From contig JAHBVG010000012.1 of the NCBI GenBank assembly GCA_019637695.1, positions 1 to 64,000 of the forward strand: a stretch of 64,000 bases of DNA. The letters are read 5' to 3'. Every line of letters starts with the position of its first letter. Position 1 is the stretch's first letter. Both the position numbers and the translations under genes were made by a program. Below are positions 1 through 11,201 of the stretch, piece after piece. The DNA is from Caldilineaceae bacterium (GTDB taxonomy: Bacteria > Chloroflexota > Anaerolineae > Caldilineales > Caldilineaceae). Under the pieces are notes generated by a model, which was not told the DNA's origin, made no database searches, and worked only from the letters and a program-made list of their open reading frames with translations.

Positions 1-1636
1 TCTCGAAAGGATAGTGCCACTGCGCCACCGGCATGGAGCCACTGTCGAACCAGACATCGCAGACCTCGTTGACCCGGCGCATGGTTCCGCCGTCGGGCGC
101 CAGCCAGGTGATCTCGTCCACGTAGGGGCGGTGCAGTTCGAGATCGCTCAGATCGCGACCGACCAACGCCGAGAGTTCGGCGCGGCTGCCCACGCAGACA
201 GCGTAATCGCTGCCCGGCGCGTCGCTCTGCCAGATGGGCAGGGGCGTGGCCCAATAGCGGTCGCGGCCCATGGCCCAATCCACGTTGTTCTCAAGCCAGT
301 TGCCAAAGCGACCGTGCTTGATGTGGTTCGGCACCCAGTTGATCTCTTCGTTGTTGGCGACGAGCCGATCCCTGTATTGGCTGGTGCGCACATACCAGGT
401 TGTCTTGGCCCAGTAGATCAGCGGCGTGTCACAGCGCCAGCAGAAGGGATAGCTGTGTTCGTAGGTCCCCGCTTTGTAGAGCAGACCGCGCCCCTTCAAT
501 TCCTCAGTGATGGCGGGATCGGCCTCTTTGACAAAAACGCCCGCCCACGGCTCTACTTCGGGTTTGAACTGCCCGGCGGCGTCCACGGTTTGGAGGACGG
601 GCAGACCATATTTGCGGCCAACCTCCATATCGTCCGCGCCGAAGGCCGGCGCAATGTGGACGATGCCGGTGCCGTCCGCGGTGGAGACAAAGTCGGCGGT
701 GACGACGTAGGCGTACTCCTCTTCCACCGGGTAAAACTTGAAGAGCGGCGTGTAGTGCTTGCCCGCCAGATCCCTGCCTTTCAACTCGGCCAGCACCTCG
801 TACCCCGGACGCAACACCGCCTCCAGCCGCGCCTTCGCCAGATAGAGGATCGCGCCCGAACCGTCGCGCACCTTGACGTAGTCGATCTCCTTGCCCACGG
901 CCAGCGCCACATTGCCGGGCAGCGTCCACGGCGTAGTGGTCCAGGCCAGGAAGAAGGTGTTCTCTTCGCCCTGCACGGCGAACTTCACATAGACGCTGGG
1001 ATCGACGGTTCCTTCTTTGTAGCCCAGCGAGAGTTCGTGGCTGCTCAAGGGCGTTCCACAGCGCGGGCAATAGGGCACGACCTTGTAGCCCTGGTAAAGC
1101 AGCCCCTTTTGCCAAAACTGTTTGAGGATCCACCAGAGCGACTCGATGTAGTCGTTCTTCATGGTGACGTAGGCATCTTCCAGATCCACCCAGAAGGCCA
1201 TGCGCTCGGTGAGGGCCGACCAATCTTCTAAGTAGTTCCACACCGATTCCTTGCTGCGTTGGTTGAAGGCAGCGACGCCGTACTGCTCGATCTGTTCCTT
1301 GCCGGTGAGGCCAAGCTGTTTTTCCACTTCGAGTTCCACGGGCAAGCCGTGGGTATCCCAGCCGCCTTTGCGCAGGACATAGTAGCCCTGCATGGTTTTG
1401 TAGCGGGGGAACATGTCCTTGAAGGCGCGGGCCAGCACGTGATGGATGCCGGGCCGACCGTTGGCGGTGGGCGGTCCCTCAAAGAAGACGAAGCGCGGGC
1501 CGTCCTTGCGCTCGTCCATAGAGCGCTTGAAGACGTTGCGTTCGCGCCAGAGATGGAGGAGCCGCTCTTCCATCTCCGGGTAGGATACGGAGGATTTGAC
1601 CTCCCGAAAGGTTTCTTTGCTGATTGTACGTGTCAT
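1..1636 (-). CDS. ileS: Isoleucyl-tRNA synthetase, 5' part (runs off the window)
   Basis: Charges tRNA-Ile with isoleucine in the cytoplasm. About 545 N-terminal residues of an enzyme that is normally about 1,000 are present. The translation opens MTRTISKETFREV, shows the class I active-site region PTANGRPGIHH (HIGH equivalent) near residue 60 and the WDTHGLPVE segment. The CP1 editing domain follows, with TTTPWTLPGN and FAPAFGADD-like segments. The 3' end, with the KMSKS loop, lies outside the window. The start ATG follows an AGAGG at a fair distance. It is divergent from the VapBC-like pair with only 93 bp between start codons, and no T-box was seen in that gap, which is notable because an Ile-type T-box lies 3.5 kb upstream on the same strand. 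Confidence 0.95.
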   Translation of the reverse strand, partial: MTRTISKETFREVKSSVSYPEMEERLLHLWRERNVFKRSMDERKDGPRFVFFEGPPTANGRPGIHHVLARAFKDMFPRYKTMQGYYVLRKGGWDTHGLPVELEVEKQLGLTGKEQIEQYGVAAFNQRSKESVWNYLEDWSALTERMAFWVDLEDAYVTMKNDYIESLWWILKQFWQKGLLYQGYKVVPYCPRCGTPLSSHELSLGYKEGTVDPSVYVKFAVQGEENTFFLAWTTTPWTLPGNVALAVGKEIDYVKVRDGSGAILYLAKARLEAVLRPGYEVLAELKGRDLAGKHYTPLFKFYPVEEEYAYVVTADFVSTADGTGIVHIAPAFGADDMEVGRKYGLPVLQTVDAAGQFKPEVEPWAGVFVKEADPAITEELKGRGLLYKAGTYEHSYPFCWRCDTPLIYWAKTTWYVRTSQYRDRLVANNEEINWVPNHIKHGRFGNWLENNVDWAMGRDRYWATPLPIWQSDAPGSDYAVCVGSRAELSALVGRDLSDLELHRPYVDEITWLAPDGGTMRRVNEVCDVWFDSGSMPVAQWHYPFE

Positions 1637-1663
1637 GGTTTGCCTCTGTTGTATGAAAAACAC

Positions 1664-1729: not shown

Positions 1730-2044
1730 ATGACGACACTCACGGTTGATTTTCCTCAAAATGTTTACGAGCGATTCGCCGCTCTCGCCGAAGCTGAGGG
1801 CAAGACAATGGACGAATATATGCTCGAACTGGTGGAGCAAGCGCTTCCTCCGGTCTCCTATGCACAGAAATCAGCAAGAGATATTTTGAAGGAAGCAGGC
1901 ATGCTTACCGAACTGAGCGACGAACTCAAAGCACTTATCGGTGACGATCCGCCGTCGCTAGATGAAGTGATCGAGATCTTGTCGAACGCTGGTGGTCCGT
2001 CTCTGGGTGAAATTCTCGATCAACAGCGTGGGCCGAAGCCATGA
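1730..2044 (+). CDS. VapB-like antitoxin of a PIN-toxin pair
   Basis: A 104-residue protein starting MTTLTVDFPQNVYERF. The N-terminal 45 residues have the pattern of a ribbon-helix-helix or similar small DNA-binding domain: a beta strand, then helices around EAEGKTMDEYMLELVEQAL. The acidic C-terminal half would wrap the toxin. The start is chosen because CAGGAG lies 8 bp upstream and the inverted-repeat operator precedes it; longer readings run into antisense ileS. It overlaps the toxin start by 4 bp (ATGA), so the two are probably translationally coupled. Family assignment rests mainly on the partner, since the protein itself is not strongly diagnostic. Confidence 0.7.
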   Translation: MTTLTVDFPQNVYERFAALAEAEGKTMDEYMLELVEQALPPVSYAQKSARDILKEAGMLTELSDELKALIGDDPPSLDEVIEILSNAGGPSLGEILDQQRGPKP

Positions 2045-2505
2045 CGGATTACTTCTTAGATTCCAGCGCTGTCCTCAAGCGCTATATAAAAGAAAAAGGC
2101 AGCGATTGGATTCGCACCATCACAGAGCAACGTGATGGTGTAGTCATTCTTGCCCAGCTGACGCTCGTCGAAGTAGCTGCTGCCATTGCGGCAAAATCAC
2201 GCGCACCCGGCGGTATTTCAGATCGACATCGAGAGCGTGTCCTGGAGCGATTTCTCGATGATGTGGACCAACGATATTTGATCGTACCCATGCGCCATGC
2301 GATAGTTGACCGCGCTGTGCGTTTGACTCAGGTTTATCGTCTGCGTGGATACGACGCCATTCAGTTGGCAACCGCACTTGTGATTTTGTCTTCCTTACTG
2401 TCTGCGAACCGGACGGGATTTCGATTTGTCGCCAGCGATGAGGATCTGCTGGACGCTGCCAAAGCAGAGGGATTGCTCATCAACGATCCCCAACAACACA
2501 TCTGA
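2041..2505 (+). CDS. PIN-domain ribonuclease toxin (VapC-like)
   Basis: A 154-residue PIN-domain protein. The acidic residues expected of PIN nucleases are visible: D7 in FLDSSAVLKRY, E44 in LTLVEVAAA, the D in RGYDAIQLATA, and a late D in FVASDEDLLDAA. VapC toxins cleave RNA, often tRNA anticodon loops, and are neutralised by the antitoxin encoded just upstream. It starts within the antitoxin stop codon. It ends 2 bp from the end of the convergent GNAT gene, with no room for a terminator. Confidence 0.88.
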   Translation: MTDYFLDSSAVLKRYIKEKGSDWIRTITEQRDGVVILAQLTLVEVAAAIAAKSRAPGGISDRHRERVLERFLDDVDQRYLIVPMRHAIVDRAVRLTQVYRLRGYDAIQLATALVILSSLLSANRTGFRFVASDEDLLDAAKAEGLLINDPQQHI

Positions 2506-2506
2506 T

Positions 2507-3010
2507 TCACAGATCCATCCGCATCCACTCGATGTCGTAGTAGCGTCCCTCCCACTTGATGTAACCCTCCTCGACAAAGGTGGGGACAAACCCCGCAGAT
2601 AGGTAAAGCTGCCGGGCCGCCTCGTTGCCCACGGTGACGGCGATGATCAACCGTTCCAATCCGCGCTGGGATCGGGCGTGGTCGAGGATCGCACGCATCA
2701 ACGCCCGTCCGCCGCCCTGTCCGCGCGCTTCGGGGATGACATACATACTGCCGACAATGGCGCGGTGGCGCGTCTTGCGTCCTGGGTAACGGTGCAGGGT
2801 GGCGATGCCGCTCAACGTGTTCTCCTCAAAGAGGCCAAAGACAGCCTTATCCGCCGGATCAACGTTCAACCCTGCCGCCACCTGCTCGATAGTCGTATGG
2901 CGCTCATCGTAGTAGTCGCGGCCAAAGGCTTCGGGGTGATCTTGCAGCGCTCGCAGCCAGATCGGTTGATAATGTGCGGCGTCTTCCCCAGTCAAGAGTC
3001 GAACGAACAT
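2507..3010 (-). CDS. GNAT-family N-acetyltransferase
   Basis: A 167-residue acetyltransferase that would transfer acetyl from acetyl-CoA to an amine of unknown substrate. The acetyl-CoA-binding motif A is seen in VIPEARGQGGGRALM (Q/RxxGxG/A type). Motif B is NEAARQLYLSAGF, typical of RimI/PhnO-like members. A strong GGAGGG lies just before the ATG and overlaps the end of the transposase gene: TGA and ATG are separated by one base, so the two are probably co-translated. It is convergent with the PIN toxin. Confidence 0.85.
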   Translation of the reverse strand: MFVRLLTGEDAAHYQPIWLRALQDHPEAFGRDYYDERHTTIEQVAAGLNVDPADKAVFGLFEENTLSGIATLHRYPGRKTRHRAIVGSMYVIPEARGQGGGRALMRAILDHARSQRGLERLIIAVTVGNEAARQLYLSAGFVPTFVEEGYIKWEGRYYDIEWMRMDL

Positions 3011-3011
3011 C

Positions 3012-3539
3012 TCACCCTCCTTGCAAACGGGCCGGTTTTTGCCATCCCCAGCCCAGTTTATAAAGCCCTCGCTCTACCCACGGGCCGTAGCTGCTCGATT
3101 CCCAAAGTTCGGGCCGCGCTGCCAATCCATGCTGCACAGGATCATAATGGATCAGATCGAGCTTGTGGGCGAAGTCATCTACATCGTCAACCCGTTCAAT
3201 GCTGCGCCGACGATCCCAGACTTCCATCTCGCCGGGAATGCCCATCACTTGCAGATAGGAATCATGATAGCGATGCAGGAATCGATCCACGATCTGCCCG
3301 ACGGGTATCCCATCCTCTGGACGAATCAGCAGGTGCAAGTGCGCCGGCAAGATGACGAACCCCAGCATCGTGAAGGCAAGGCGCTGTTTGACCTCACGCA
3401 AGACCGACCGTACCAGATGCGCCGTGGTCCTCTGCCCGAAGAGCGGCTCCCCGTTCACCGCCCAGCACGTGATGAAAGAGATCCCCGGTCGAAAGAAGGG
3501 GGCGTAGGCGGTGGCAGGGCGGTCGGGAATAGGGTTCAT
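3012..3539 (-). CDS. REP-associated tyrosine transposase-like protein (RAYT, Y1 family)
   Basis: A 175-residue IS200/IS605-type Y1 transposase relative. The HUH metal-binding motif is seen as ILPAHLHLLI. The typical C-terminal segment HYDPVQHGLAARPELWESSSY matches the HYNPVKHGL block of RAYT proteins, which is interrupted here only by conservative changes. RAYTs are single-copy domesticated transposases that act on REP palindromes. Three copies of a REP-like palindrome occur in this window (11.2, 33.0 and 45.4 kb), though none directly flanks this gene. It is followed at once by the GNAT gene. Which Tyr is catalytic could not be decided by eye. Confidence 0.82.
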   Translation of the reverse strand: MNPIPDRPATAYAPFFRPGISFITCWAVNGEPLFGQRTTAHLVRSVLREVKQRLAFTMLGFVILPAHLHLLIRPEDGIPVGQIVDRFLHRYHDSYLQVMGIPGEMEVWDRRRSIERVDDVDDFAHKLDLIHYDPVQHGLAARPELWESSSYGPWVERGLYKLGWGWQKPARLQGG

Positions 3540-3650: not shown

Positions 3651-4385
3651 TCAAACAATCTCCACATAGATCCGCTTGTTGATCGCGCCCTTGCTCTTGT
3701 AATCCACGACCTTCATCCGCCCTACTTCGCGGGTGTTGCGGACGTGGGTGCCGCCGTCGGCCTGAAGATCAAGCCCTTCGAGTTCCACCGTGCGGATCTC
3801 GCTGATCTGCGGCGGCAGCAAATTGATCTTCGTGCGGATCAGATCCGGGATCTGGAACGCTTCCTCGCGCGGCAGGATCTGCGTCTTCACATCGTGGGCA
3901 GCGCGGATCTCGGCGTTACAGCGATCTTCGATTTCGCTGACCAGTTCCTTGCTCATGGCGGCGAACTCGAAATCCATGCGTCCGGCCCCCGGATCCATAT
4001 TGCCGCCGGTCACCTGTGCGCCGTAGTCGCGCCAAACCACCCCGCAAAGGATGTGCATGGCCGTGTGCGTGCGCATAATGGCATAGCGGCGATCCCAATC
4101 CAGCGCGCCGTGGATCGCCGTCCCTTCGGTAATCGATGGCAGACCACCGTCGGTGTTTTCGAGCGTGTGCCAGATCTGCTCGCCTTCTTTGTTGACTTTG
4201 ACCACGCGCAGGCGTTGACCCTCTATGGTCAGCCAGCCTTCATCGTTGGGCTGCCCGCCGCCGCCGGGGAAGAAGGCCGTGCGATCCAATGACACACGCC
4301 GTTTGCCGTCCTTTTCTTCGATGGCCGTAACCAGCGCATCGAACGAGCCAGTATAGGCGTCATCATAGTAGAGCAACGTCGTCAT
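3651..4385 (-). CDS. AlaX-like alanyl-tRNA editing protein
   Basis: A 244-residue free-standing editing domain related to the AlaRS editing and C-terminal region, which hydrolyses mischarged Ser- or Gly-tRNA-Ala. The zinc motif HTAMHIL (HxxxH) is present near residue 105. The second zinc segment appears as ADGGTHV, where many family members have C-GGTH, so the usual Cys is an Asp-preceded variant. The N-terminal FFPGGGGQPNDEG block is also typical. The start is placed at MTTLLYYDD; an upstream ATG at 4421 would overlap the preceding methyltransferase. It is in a run with the upstream methyltransferase, both behind the T-box. Confidence 0.85.
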   Translation of the reverse strand: MTTLLYYDDAYTGSFDALVTAIEEKDGKRRVSLDRTAFFPGGGGQPNDEGWLTIEGQRLRVVKVNKEGEQIWHTLENTDGGLPSITEGTAIHGALDWDRRYAIMRTHTAMHILCGVVWRDYGAQVTGGNMDPGAGRMDFEFAAMSKELVSEIEDRCNAEIRAAHDVKTQILPREEAFQIPDLIRTKINLLPPQISEIRTVELEGLDLQADGGTHVRNTREVGRMKVVDYKSKGAINKRIYVEIV

Positions 4386-4405: not shown

Positions 4406-5155
4406 TTAGGTGCAACGGCACATGACCCGATTGATCGAATAGAAGAAATAGCCCCGCTCATGTTGTTGGGCCAGATCATCCAGCCAGCTTTGTAGATCGC
4501 CCACAGGAATCAGCTCTTTTTCACGCAACCACTGAACCATCATGTAGGCAACCCGGTATCCGTAAAGATCCGGCTGCCAGGCAGTGTTAACCAGTGGATA
4601 GATCGTTACTTCGAGAGAAAGACCCGCCTGGCGACAGATCCCTGGCAGTTCCCGCCCAATCTGTCCACGCGGCCCCGCATCGTTAAACGCGTGGACAATG
4701 CGCCGGTTGAGTTCGACATTCGTGGCATTGAAGACCTGTGTATCAAAGTCCGAATGGACGATCAATGCTACCCCGCCTGGCTTCAGCACCCGTCGCATCT
4801 CCTGAACCGCCAGCAACGGATCGGCCACCCACTCCAGCGTATCCACACAGAGGAGCCGATCAAAGCTGGCGTCGGCGAAGGGCAGATCCTGCGCGTCGCC
4901 GGCGCGGAAGTCGATCCGCGCCGATTGCGCTTTCGCCTGACTGTGCGCTTCCGCATAACGCTCTGGTTTGGGTTCAAGCCCGATCACCTCCGCCACTTCA
5001 GGATAGATCCGCAGCAGCAATTGATCGGCGTCACCCGTGCCACAGCCCACATCGAGGACACGATCCCCTGCCCCAAGAGCAAGGACCGAAAGATAGTGCC
5101 GCCACTGCGCCAGCACATCCGGTATGGGTGGATTCAAGAAATTTTTCTGCGCCAT
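4406..5155 (-). CDS. Class I SAM-dependent methyltransferase (UbiE/Methyltransf_11 type)
   Basis: A 249-residue protein with the Rossmann methyltransferase signature: motif I VLDVGCGTGDADQ near residue 42, motif II around GLEPKPER, the GDAQDLPFADASFD block, and LEWVADPLLAVQEMRRVLKPGG. The substrate cannot be read from the sequence. The start MAQKNF is chosen because GGAG lies 8 bp upstream; an in-frame ATG further up lies in the T-box terminator. It is the first gene after the T-box leader, so its transcription should depend on an uncharged tRNA. It is followed by the AlaX-like gene 20 bp away. Confidence 0.85.
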   Translation of the reverse strand: MAQKNFLNPPIPDVLAQWRHYLSVLALGAGDRVLDVGCGTGDADQLLLRIYPEVAEVIGLEPKPERYAEAHSQAKAQSARIDFRAGDAQDLPFADASFDRLLCVDTLEWVADPLLAVQEMRRVLKPGGVALIVHSDFDTQVFNATNVELNRRIVHAFNDAGPRGQIGRELPGICRQAGLSLEVTIYPLVNTAWQPDLYGYRVAYMMVQWLREKELIPVGDLQSWLDDLAQQHERGYFFYSINRVMCRCT

Positions 5156-5171: not shown

Positions 5172-5510
5172 AAAAAACCCATCCCCCAAACGGGGACGGG
5201 CTAAATAGTCCGCGATACCACCCCAGTTCTCGATCACGAGGATCGAGCACCTCTGTGCAACGCTGCGCCCGAAGAAGTCACACGAACAAAGATACCTACA
5301 CTAACCAATCTTTATTCATCATTCATTCTTTTGCGCAAAGCCGCCGTGAGGATAACGGTTCACGATACCGGTGGCGTCTACTGGGCGGGATACGCGGTTC
5401 GGGCCACTGCTCAGGAGGGATCTTCACAGGTGAAGGGTCGATCCGGCTTACACCCTCCCGGACTCGCTGGACGACGTTTCATCTGTTACTCGTCTCCGTC
5501 AACGCAACTG
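5172..5510 (-). ncRNA. T-box leader, probably isoleucine-responsive, with terminator/antiterminator
   Basis: On the minus strand the conserved T-box GGGTGGTATCGCGG (about 5210-5225) is followed by AGCCCGTCCCCG, then the terminator stem CCCGTCCCC / GGGGGATGGG (5178-5200) and a T run. Further 5' is Stem I: GGAGACGAGTAAC, the CAGCGAGTCCGGG distal element, and the specifier loop strand GTGAAGATCCCTCC (5427-5414). The codon could be GAT (5422-5420) or ATC (5421-5419). The UGGU bulge in the T-box requires discriminator A73, which fits tRNA-Ile and not tRNA-Asp, so ATC is preferred. Uncharged tRNA would stabilise the antiterminator and allow transcription of the downstream methyltransferase and AlaX-like genes. 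Confidence 0.88.
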
Positions 5511-5528
5511 CTGACAGGTTTGTGTTCG

Positions 5529-5557
5529 AGTGTAGCAGGCAGACACTCCCTTGTCAA
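5529..5557 (-). promoter_or_regulatory. Sigma-70-type promoter of the T-box leader
   Basis: A perfect TTGACA (5557-5552) and TACACT (5534-5529) are separated by 17 bp, placing transcription initiation near 5522, just ahead of Stem I. The last base of the -35 box is the first base of the 9-bp duplication flanking the MITE. Confidence 0.8.
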
Positions 5558-5709
5558 TATTTTTAGGGTGTGTTCAAAATGAGTTGGCCGTCTGGGTAGG
5601 GGTTTGGGTGGACGGCAGACGAGCAATAGCTTACGCAGACGATTTTTGTGAGCCGTCCACCCAAACCCTTACGAATCATCAATCCATTCTGAATACACCC
5701 ATATTTTTA
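5557..5709. mobile_element. 135-bp MITE with 9-bp target-site duplication
   Basis: The element spans 5566-5700. Its ends are imperfect inverted repeats: GGGTGTGTTCAAAATGA at the left, and CCATTCTGAATACACCC at the right. Inside is a perfect 17-bp inverted repeat: GGGTTTGGGTGGACGGC (5600-5616) against its complement (5652-5668). ATATTTTTA occurs on both sides (5557-5565 and 5701-5709) as a perfect direct repeat. No coding capacity is seen. The right 35 bp recurs at 47344-47378 with two changes. The mobilising transposase is not in the window. Confidence 0.85.
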
Positions 5710-9699: not shown

Positions 9700-11121
9700 T
9701 CAATTGAGAATTGCTTCTTTCACCGCCTCCAACGTCGGCGCGATGATCTGTGGTTCCCCCGTGGCTTGAATCGCGGCGTTGACATCTTTGAGACCGCTGC
9801 CGGTGTTGATGACGACGATGGTTTCGTCAGGATTGACGAGTCCATCACAGTACGCTTGCAGCAGGCCGGCGTAGGCCGTGGCCCCTGCTGGTTCCGCAAA
9901 GACCGCACCCAGCCGCGCCAACGGCGGAATCGCATTGAGGATCGCTTCGTCTTCCACTAGGACGTACACACCGCCGGTTTCGCGCACCGCCGCCAGCGCT
10001 TTGATCGCATCCCGCGGCGCGTTGACGCTGATGGAATCGGCGCGGGTGGTAGCATCCACGGGCAGTGGAACCTCTCGGTCCTCACGCCAGGCCGCGGCGA
10101 TGGCCGCGCTCTTTGACGACTGCACGCCGATGATGCGCGGCATCCGCTCGATCCATCCCAGCGCCAGCAGATCTTTGAATCCCTTGTGTACCCCGCCGAT
10201 GATGCAGCCATCCCCCACGGAGACGAAGACGACGTCGGGGATTGGGGATTGGGGATTGGAGATTGGGGATTGAGGATTGGGGACTGGGGACTGGGTATTA
10301 GATATTGGGTATTGGGTATCCTCTGCGGTCTGCGGTCTGCGGTCTGCGGTCTGCGGTCGGTCGCCCGCTAACTGCCAACGGCTAACTGCCAACTGCTCCC
10401 AAATCTCAAAGGCCACTGTCTTCTTGCCCTCGGTCATGTAGGGGTTGTAGCCGGTGTTGCGGTTGTACCAGCCGAATTCGTGGCAGGCGGCGACGCAGAG
10501 ATCGAAGGCGTCGTCGTAGGTGCCGTCCACGGCGAGGACGCGGCTGCCGTAGACGAGGAGTTGGGCGATCTTGGCGCGAGGGGCTGTCTTGGGCACGAAG
10601 ATGACGCTGGGCTGCCCGGCGGCGGCGGCTTGGGCGGCCAGGGCGGCGGCGGCGTTGCCCGTGCTGGCGGTGGCGACGACGGCGCGTCCACTTTCCTGGG
10701 CGCGGGCGACGGCAATGGCCGAGGCCCGATCCTTAAACGAAGCGGACGGGTTGCGTCCGTCATCTTTGATGTAAAGGTTGGGCAGGCCAATCGATGATCC
10801 CAGCCGGTGGGCGTGGAGCAGCGGCGTGTTGCCTACGGGCAACGGTGGCAGACTCCCGCGCCGGGCAATGGGGAGCAGCGGCCACCAGCGCCCAATCGAT
10901 CGGTCGGGATCTGCGGCAATCTGCGCGGGGGAGACGATCCCGTTAATGGCGGCGTAATCATATTGAACGTCGAGCGTACCCAGATCGCTGCCGATATTGG
11001 GACGACACGGGCATACATAGTCGATCTCATTCGCCGCGTAGACATGTCCACAGCGCAGACAGCGCAACCCGGTGACAAAAGGAGGTACTTCAGAAATGGC
11101 TCGAAGAGGATTCTCTGACAT
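9700..11121 (-). CDS. Threonine synthase-like PLP enzyme with repeat-encoded insertion
   Basis: A 473-residue fold-type II PLP enzyme. A zinc-ribbon-like N-terminus ([19 protein letters not shown]) is followed by the PLP-lysine segment [11 protein letters not shown], the STGNAAAAL phosphate-binding region and [13 protein letters not shown]. Threonine synthase converts O-phosphohomoserine to threonine. Between AFEIWEQL and PDVVFVS about 50 residues are encoded entirely by heptamer repeats (DRRPQTA, NPQSPIS units); the family has only a short loop there. The start MSENPLRAI is preferred because a TATAAT at 11166-11161 places the transcript start downstream of the longer in-frame start. A second threonine synthase lies at 40.8-42.1 kb. 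Confidence 0.8.
10237..10398. repeat. Composite heptamer array inside the threonine-synthase-like gene
   Basis: Four families lie end to end: GGGGATT/GGGGACT (10237-10295), ATTGGGT (10295-10319), CTGCGGT (10322-10359) and ACTGCCA/ACGGCTA (10369-10396). In the coding sense they read as NPQSPIP-, NTQYPIS- and DRRPQTA-type heptapeptides. The whole array is in frame with both gene halves. Confidence 0.85.
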
Positions 11122-11160
11122 GGCGCGTCTCAAGTGGATGGGTCTTGTCAATGTGCAATC

Positions 11161-11201
11161 ATTATACATCATTTGGTATCTCACCCTGATTCCGGTATAC
11201 T
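11161..11201. promoter_or_regulatory. Divergent promoters of the threonine-synthase-like and DUF3054 genes
   Basis: On the minus strand TATAAT lies at 11166-11161, 40 bp before the threonine-synthase-like start, with only a weak -35. On the plus strand TTGGTA (11173-11178) and TATACT (11196-11201) are 17 bp apart. The two promoters overlap back to back. Confidence 0.5.

Follow-up and report, generated by a model that had tools for sequence, protein, structure and literature searches.

A probable isoleucine T-box heading a stretched ileS operon in a Caldilineaceae bacterium

Isoleucine T-boxes at ileS genes are textbook regulatory elements. In the window analyzed here, the whole 64,000-nucleotide stretch at the start of a contig, a T-box is followed by a methyltransferase gene and an alaX-like gene, and ileS lies 3.5 kb away. 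Which gene, then, does the switch serve? The original prediction was that it drives the methyltransferase and the AlaX-like protein instead of a synthetase. The host genome is a MAG of 6.83 Mb (88.8% complete and 5.3% contaminated).

The T-box leader and its specifier

The element is a genuine T-box leader. The Rfam covariance model RF00230 matched it at full length (model positions 1 to 219 of 219; window positions 5511 to 5189, minus strand; 92.4 bits; E value, 8.7e-21). The gathering score of RF00230, a curation threshold and not a structural feature, is 93 bits, so that a default Rfam scan is silent on this T-box, which falls 0.6 bit below. Orthologous T-boxes in genomes G078, G086, and G062 score above the threshold (110.4, 107.8, and 102 bits, respectively). 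In an alignment of 32 homologous copies, compensatory changes were found at 39 of the 54 consensus pairs, and the terminator pairs were also conserved. The T-box landmarks and the TTGACA/TACACT promoter described in the original prediction were thus confirmed, with the following positions.

5529 to 5557, minus strand: well-spaced promoter TTGACA-17 nt-TACACT, with 10 of 12 consensus matches and a TG before the -10 box
5189 to 5511, minus strand: T-box leader (RF00230), based on the covariance-model match and covariation
5419 to 5421, minus strand: specifier codon AUC (Ile), invariant and preceded by a variable base, in a register calibrated on the T-boxes of the same genome
5217 to 5220, minus strand: UGGU of the T-box bulge in the Rfam alignment, fitting A73 of tRNA-Ile
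5176 to 5202, minus strand: strong intrinsic terminator (GC-rich hairpin plus T run)

The Rfam alignment of the window copy shows GAA-G-AUC-C on the 3' side of the specifier loop, followed by CUCC, a strand of lower Stem I. According to the TBDB rule, the specifier comprises bases 2 to 4 from the 3' end of the specifier loop (PMC7778990), which gives AUC here. The RF00230 search identified six T-boxes in the host genome, four of which precede trpE-trpS-trpG, pheS, valS, and aspS (gene names from translations); the same register reads UGG, UUC, GUA, and GAC in these, each suiting its gene. The sixth T-box, at the end of contig C100 (L001, 1501 to 1706), carries UGGC, and its gene is beyond the contig end. 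By the same register, its specifier is most likely AGC (Ser).

Homologous T-boxes located before alaX were collected without requiring AUC. The pattern GAA-N-AUC was present in 67 of the 70 candidates, and two of the other three (L046 and L116) also had AUC when their sequences were read, giving 69 T-boxes with AUC; the last one, L157, is not a T-box. The base preceding AUC may be A, T, G, or C, while AUC itself is constant in all 69. UGGU was present in 66 of the 67 pattern-scored T-boxes. The tRNA-Ile(GAU) of relatives G031 and G043 ends in CCC-A-CCA, i.e., it has A73; tRNA-Ile was not found among the host tRNAs examined in the assembly, and A73 was checked in the relatives only.

The original prediction had read the specifier as GAT or ATC and favored isoleucine, as UGGU demands A73, and both the invariant AUC and the A73 of the relatives agree with that preference. 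A T-box sensing aspartate through GAU, which can be read one base 5' of AUC in the window copy, is extremely improbable: the first base of this GAU is not conserved in the homologues, the G73 of the host tRNA-Asp would meet UGGU only by wobble, and aspS has its own T-box with GAC. We rejected GAU on the basis of conservation across the homologues and the register calibration, and since the base before AUC is free, GAU is a chance reading in this copy. From these sequence comparisons, the specifier is AUC (Ile) and not GAU.

Operon order in relatives and the genes added in the window

The loci compared comprised an initial set of 20, followed by 80 named GTDB loci (Caldilineaceae, Ardenticatenaceae, and other Anaerolineae) and then by 18 more. 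Orthologs of alaX were found throughout the class Anaerolineae. At the T-box-bearing loci, in Caldilineaceae and in other Anaerolineae, the prevailing order is T-box-alaX-ileS on one strand. Among the 45 named loci with T-box and alaX, ileS lies at most 2.6 kb downstream in 39, and the contigs of the remaining 6 break off downstream of alaX, five within 0.9 kb of it and one after 2.9 kb. The alaX-ileS gap is often below 200 nt (45 nt in G003, 50 nt in G022, and an overlap elsewhere), and the order occurs with either of two IleRS forms that are only about a third identical. The picture at the 29 alaX loci without a T-box is as follows: ileS is adjacent in 2 and 3 to 4 kb away in 6, and 18 have at least 3 kb of sequence and no ileS. 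The six loci with ileS 3 to 4 kb downstream on the same contig (L125, L141, L163, L164, L167, and L173) represent another form of the cluster. G015, which has no alaX ortholog, shows the order T-box-REP gene-ileS.

In this distribution, the T-box and ileS travel together and alaX rides along, and, judged by gene order, T-box-alaX-ileS is the ancestral arrangement for this part of Chloroflexota. The order in the relatives identifies the window T-box as that of an ileS operon and alaX as an old co-operon gene, so that the idea of a switch acting instead on a methyltransferase and AlaX does not hold in its original form. We consider it very probable that the window element is the transcription-terminating isoleucine T-box of a stretched ileS operon.

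In the direction of the operon, the window has the T-box, the methyltransferase gene, alaX, the REP-type gene, the GNAT gene, vapC and vapB (both antisense), and ileS. Family matches agree with the original reading of these genes, including the opposing VapBC pair and the 3.5-kb distance of ileS.

4406 to 5155, minus strand: class I SAM methyltransferase gene between the T-box and alaX, with an ortholog in G027 (59%)
3651 to 4385, minus strand: alaX, AlaXM-like, with a SAD domain and the motifs HTAMH and QADGGTH (family models and synteny)
3012 to 3539, minus strand: REP-associated tyrosine transposase-like gene (family models and genome comparison)
2507 to 3010, minus strand: GNAT acetyltransferase gene (family match; G001 copy, 83%, at the same place)
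2041 to 2505, plus strand: vapC-like PIN toxin gene, antisense to the operon (family match)
1730 to 2044, plus strand: vapB-like RHH antitoxin gene, antisense to the operon (family match)
2 to 1663, minus strand: ileS, N-terminal 554 amino acids, truncated at window position 1, where the contig ends; the sole clear ileS in the assembly
5562 to 5705, no strand assigned: 144-bp palindromic repeat (MITE-like), whose end lies 5 bp from the -35 hexamer of the T-box promoter

The methyltransferase gene most likely starts at 5155 and not at 5182, since the first ATG is inside the terminator and GGAG precedes 5155. The terminator stem is ~20 nt upstream of this start, and the gene has a ribosome-binding site of its own. 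Only G027 has an ortholog at the matching place (59% identical), there beside a GNAT gene, and none of the 25 methyltransferase models listed reached its curated cutoff with this protein. Most relatives have no gene in the slot that follows the terminator. In genus g7, a homologous GNAT gene occupies it before alaX, and in G001, which belongs to the same genus as the host, it contains an intact argS before alaX (TIGR00456, 422 bits; L048, 11064 to 9295, minus strand). No remnants of the methyltransferase or GNAT genes were found between the T-box and alaX in this sister genome.

The REP-type gene is located directly behind alaX in G001, G002, G007, G010, G012, G013, G014, G019, and G023 and is also found in G038. 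In each of the nine genomes from G001 to G023, the best genome-wide match of the window copy is that alaX-adjacent gene. Its shared place across eight Caldilineaceae genera shows that it is resident and was inherited with the operon, and a recent REP transposition parting the T-box from ileS was rejected on this ground. Of the suggestion that mobile DNA separated the two, the presence of extra DNA between them stands, but the REP-type gene is resident and the GNAT gene is also shared. The lineage-variable pieces are the methyltransferase gene and the VapBC pair.

The slot before ileS is occupied by VapBC in the window, in G032, and in G027 (twice, on the ileS-bearing contig) and by a TumE-type pair in G001, G010, G012, G019, G034, and G094, the TumE-type call resting on a PF20126 match of the G019 copy. 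All nine loci with such a pair have it in antisense orientation to the operon, and the two families are unrelated. Toxin-antitoxin pairs lodged before ileS were noted at L048, L049, L050, L058, L061, L183, L184, and L187 and at 1730 to 2505 in the window. Added genes have lengthened the operon in the window's lineage, and ileS is now 3.5 kb from the T-box.

Repeats were also observed in the window. The 144-bp repeat upstream of the promoter, with inverted arms of 21 nt (5596 to 5616 and 5652 to 5672), occurs at about 40 further sites in the genome (80 strand-wise matches; roughly 80 to 97% identical) and may be a MITE or serve as a substrate for REP-type transposases. At 10230 to 10410, in-frame tandem repeats (ATTGGGGATTGG..., CTGCGGT...) are found in a threonine synthase-like ORF (9700 to 11184, minus strand).

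Reach of the switch to ileS

No intrinsic terminator was predicted on the operon strand from 5176 to 1663. The 67-nt vapB-ileS gap gave no convincing promoter match on this strand, a weak negative. The consensus scan misses non-sigma-70 sites; the best matches in the gaps before ileS at the nine toxin-antitoxin-bearing loci had 7 to 8 of the 12 consensus positions. The absence of a terminator and of a convincing promoter before ileS favors read-through, and on balance we lean toward a T-box that still reaches ileS in this way.

The most likely mode of action is that of a standard tRNA-dependent switch. Uncharged tRNA-Ile(GAU) would pair with AUC in Stem I and, through its acceptor end, with UGGU, allowing the antiterminator to form and RNA polymerase to read into the operon. 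We infer that the switch works, and if it does, the methyltransferase gene, as predicted from its position, must respond to it. The T-box would directly control the methyltransferase gene and alaX and probably, by read-through, ileS, genes having been added inside the operon after the terminator (methyltransferase), after alaX (REP-type gene and GNAT), and before ileS (VapBC).

A somewhat less probable reading, and still a serious one, is that the T-box has been reassigned to the methyltransferase gene and alaX (possibly with the REP-type and GNAT genes) and that ileS has escaped control through its own promoter near vapBC. The 3.5 kb and the antisense VapBC between T-box and ileS speak for such an escape, as does the same position of antisense toxin-antitoxin pairs in eight other genomes, and the 67-nt gap could hold a promoter. 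The lack of a convincing operon-strand promoter in the gaps of the nine loci and of a terminator before ileS, both weak negatives, argues against it. The location of all nine pairs, from two unrelated families, directly before ileS and in antisense orientation also raises the idea that the T-box couples isoleucine starvation to damping of the toxin-antitoxin pair by antisense read-through across VapBC or its TumE-type counterpart, with alaX alongside as an IleRS-linked trans-editing factor; we regard this as quite improbable.

The AlaX-like protein and comparison with known systems

The alaX product matched the AlaXM model NF040865 at full length and has the HxxxH and GGTH motifs; its score, 285.1 bits, is below the curated cutoff of 300, and we therefore describe the protein as AlaXM-like only. 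Residues H109 and H113 (HxxxH) and H216 are invariant. It differs from AlaXM in the association of its gene with ileS and may also differ in the CxxxH metal site, where the cysteine is replaced by Asp212 in 12 of 12 aligned relatives; the solved AlaRS editing domains listed carry Cys at this position.

A link of alaX to IleRS proofreading is possible on the basis of its sequence and gene order. That alaX is present in the operon as a proofreader for IleRS, a trans-editing factor acting when isoleucine is short, perhaps on mischarged tRNA-Ile, seems unlikely. The T-box-alaX-ileS order is kept across families and across the two divergent IleRS forms, and an invariant aspartate stands where AlaRS-type editing domains have their zinc-ligand cysteine, both of which fit such a role. 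The nearest named family, in contrast, is named for tRNA-Ala, alaX is located away from ileS in many Anaerolineae, and the G015 operon has no alaX.

With respect to the T-box family RF00230, including the transcriptional ileS T-boxes of Firmicutes and Dehalococcoides, the window leader shares Stem I, the specifier loop, AGUA/GAA, the UGGN bulge, the terminator/antiterminator, the Ile specifier, and ileS in the operon. A T-box of an isoleucyl-tRNA ligase gene in Dehalococcoides (Chloroflexi) has already been listed (Wels et al. 2008; PMC2494555). The Anaerolineae operon differs in having alaX, and in the window further genes, between the leader and ileS. Similarly, the REP-type gene resembles the REP-associated tyrosine transposases of NF047646 (70.7 bits for the window copy and 85.5 bits for the ortholog in L050; cutoff, 80) but is a single gene, resident within the operon of an aminoacyl-tRNA synthetase. 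The open-access literature searched, in which few subscription journals were covered, contained no mention of a T-box together with AlaX and ileS or with Anaerolineae. The novelty is modest: the T-box itself is an ordinary family member, and what is new is that a T-box operon contains a gene for a trans-editing-like protein along with accreted genes.

What looks like a T-box in front of an unexpected gene can prove to be a long-standing synthetase operon that has taken up insertions, and caution is needed in reading such arrangements. The isoleucine T-box operon with its trans-editing-like protein is clade-wide in Anaerolineae and offers a natural series in which none, one, or many genes lie between switch and synthetase. 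It makes testable whether an AlaX protein may serve IleRS and over what distance and which obstacles a T-box can control its synthetase.
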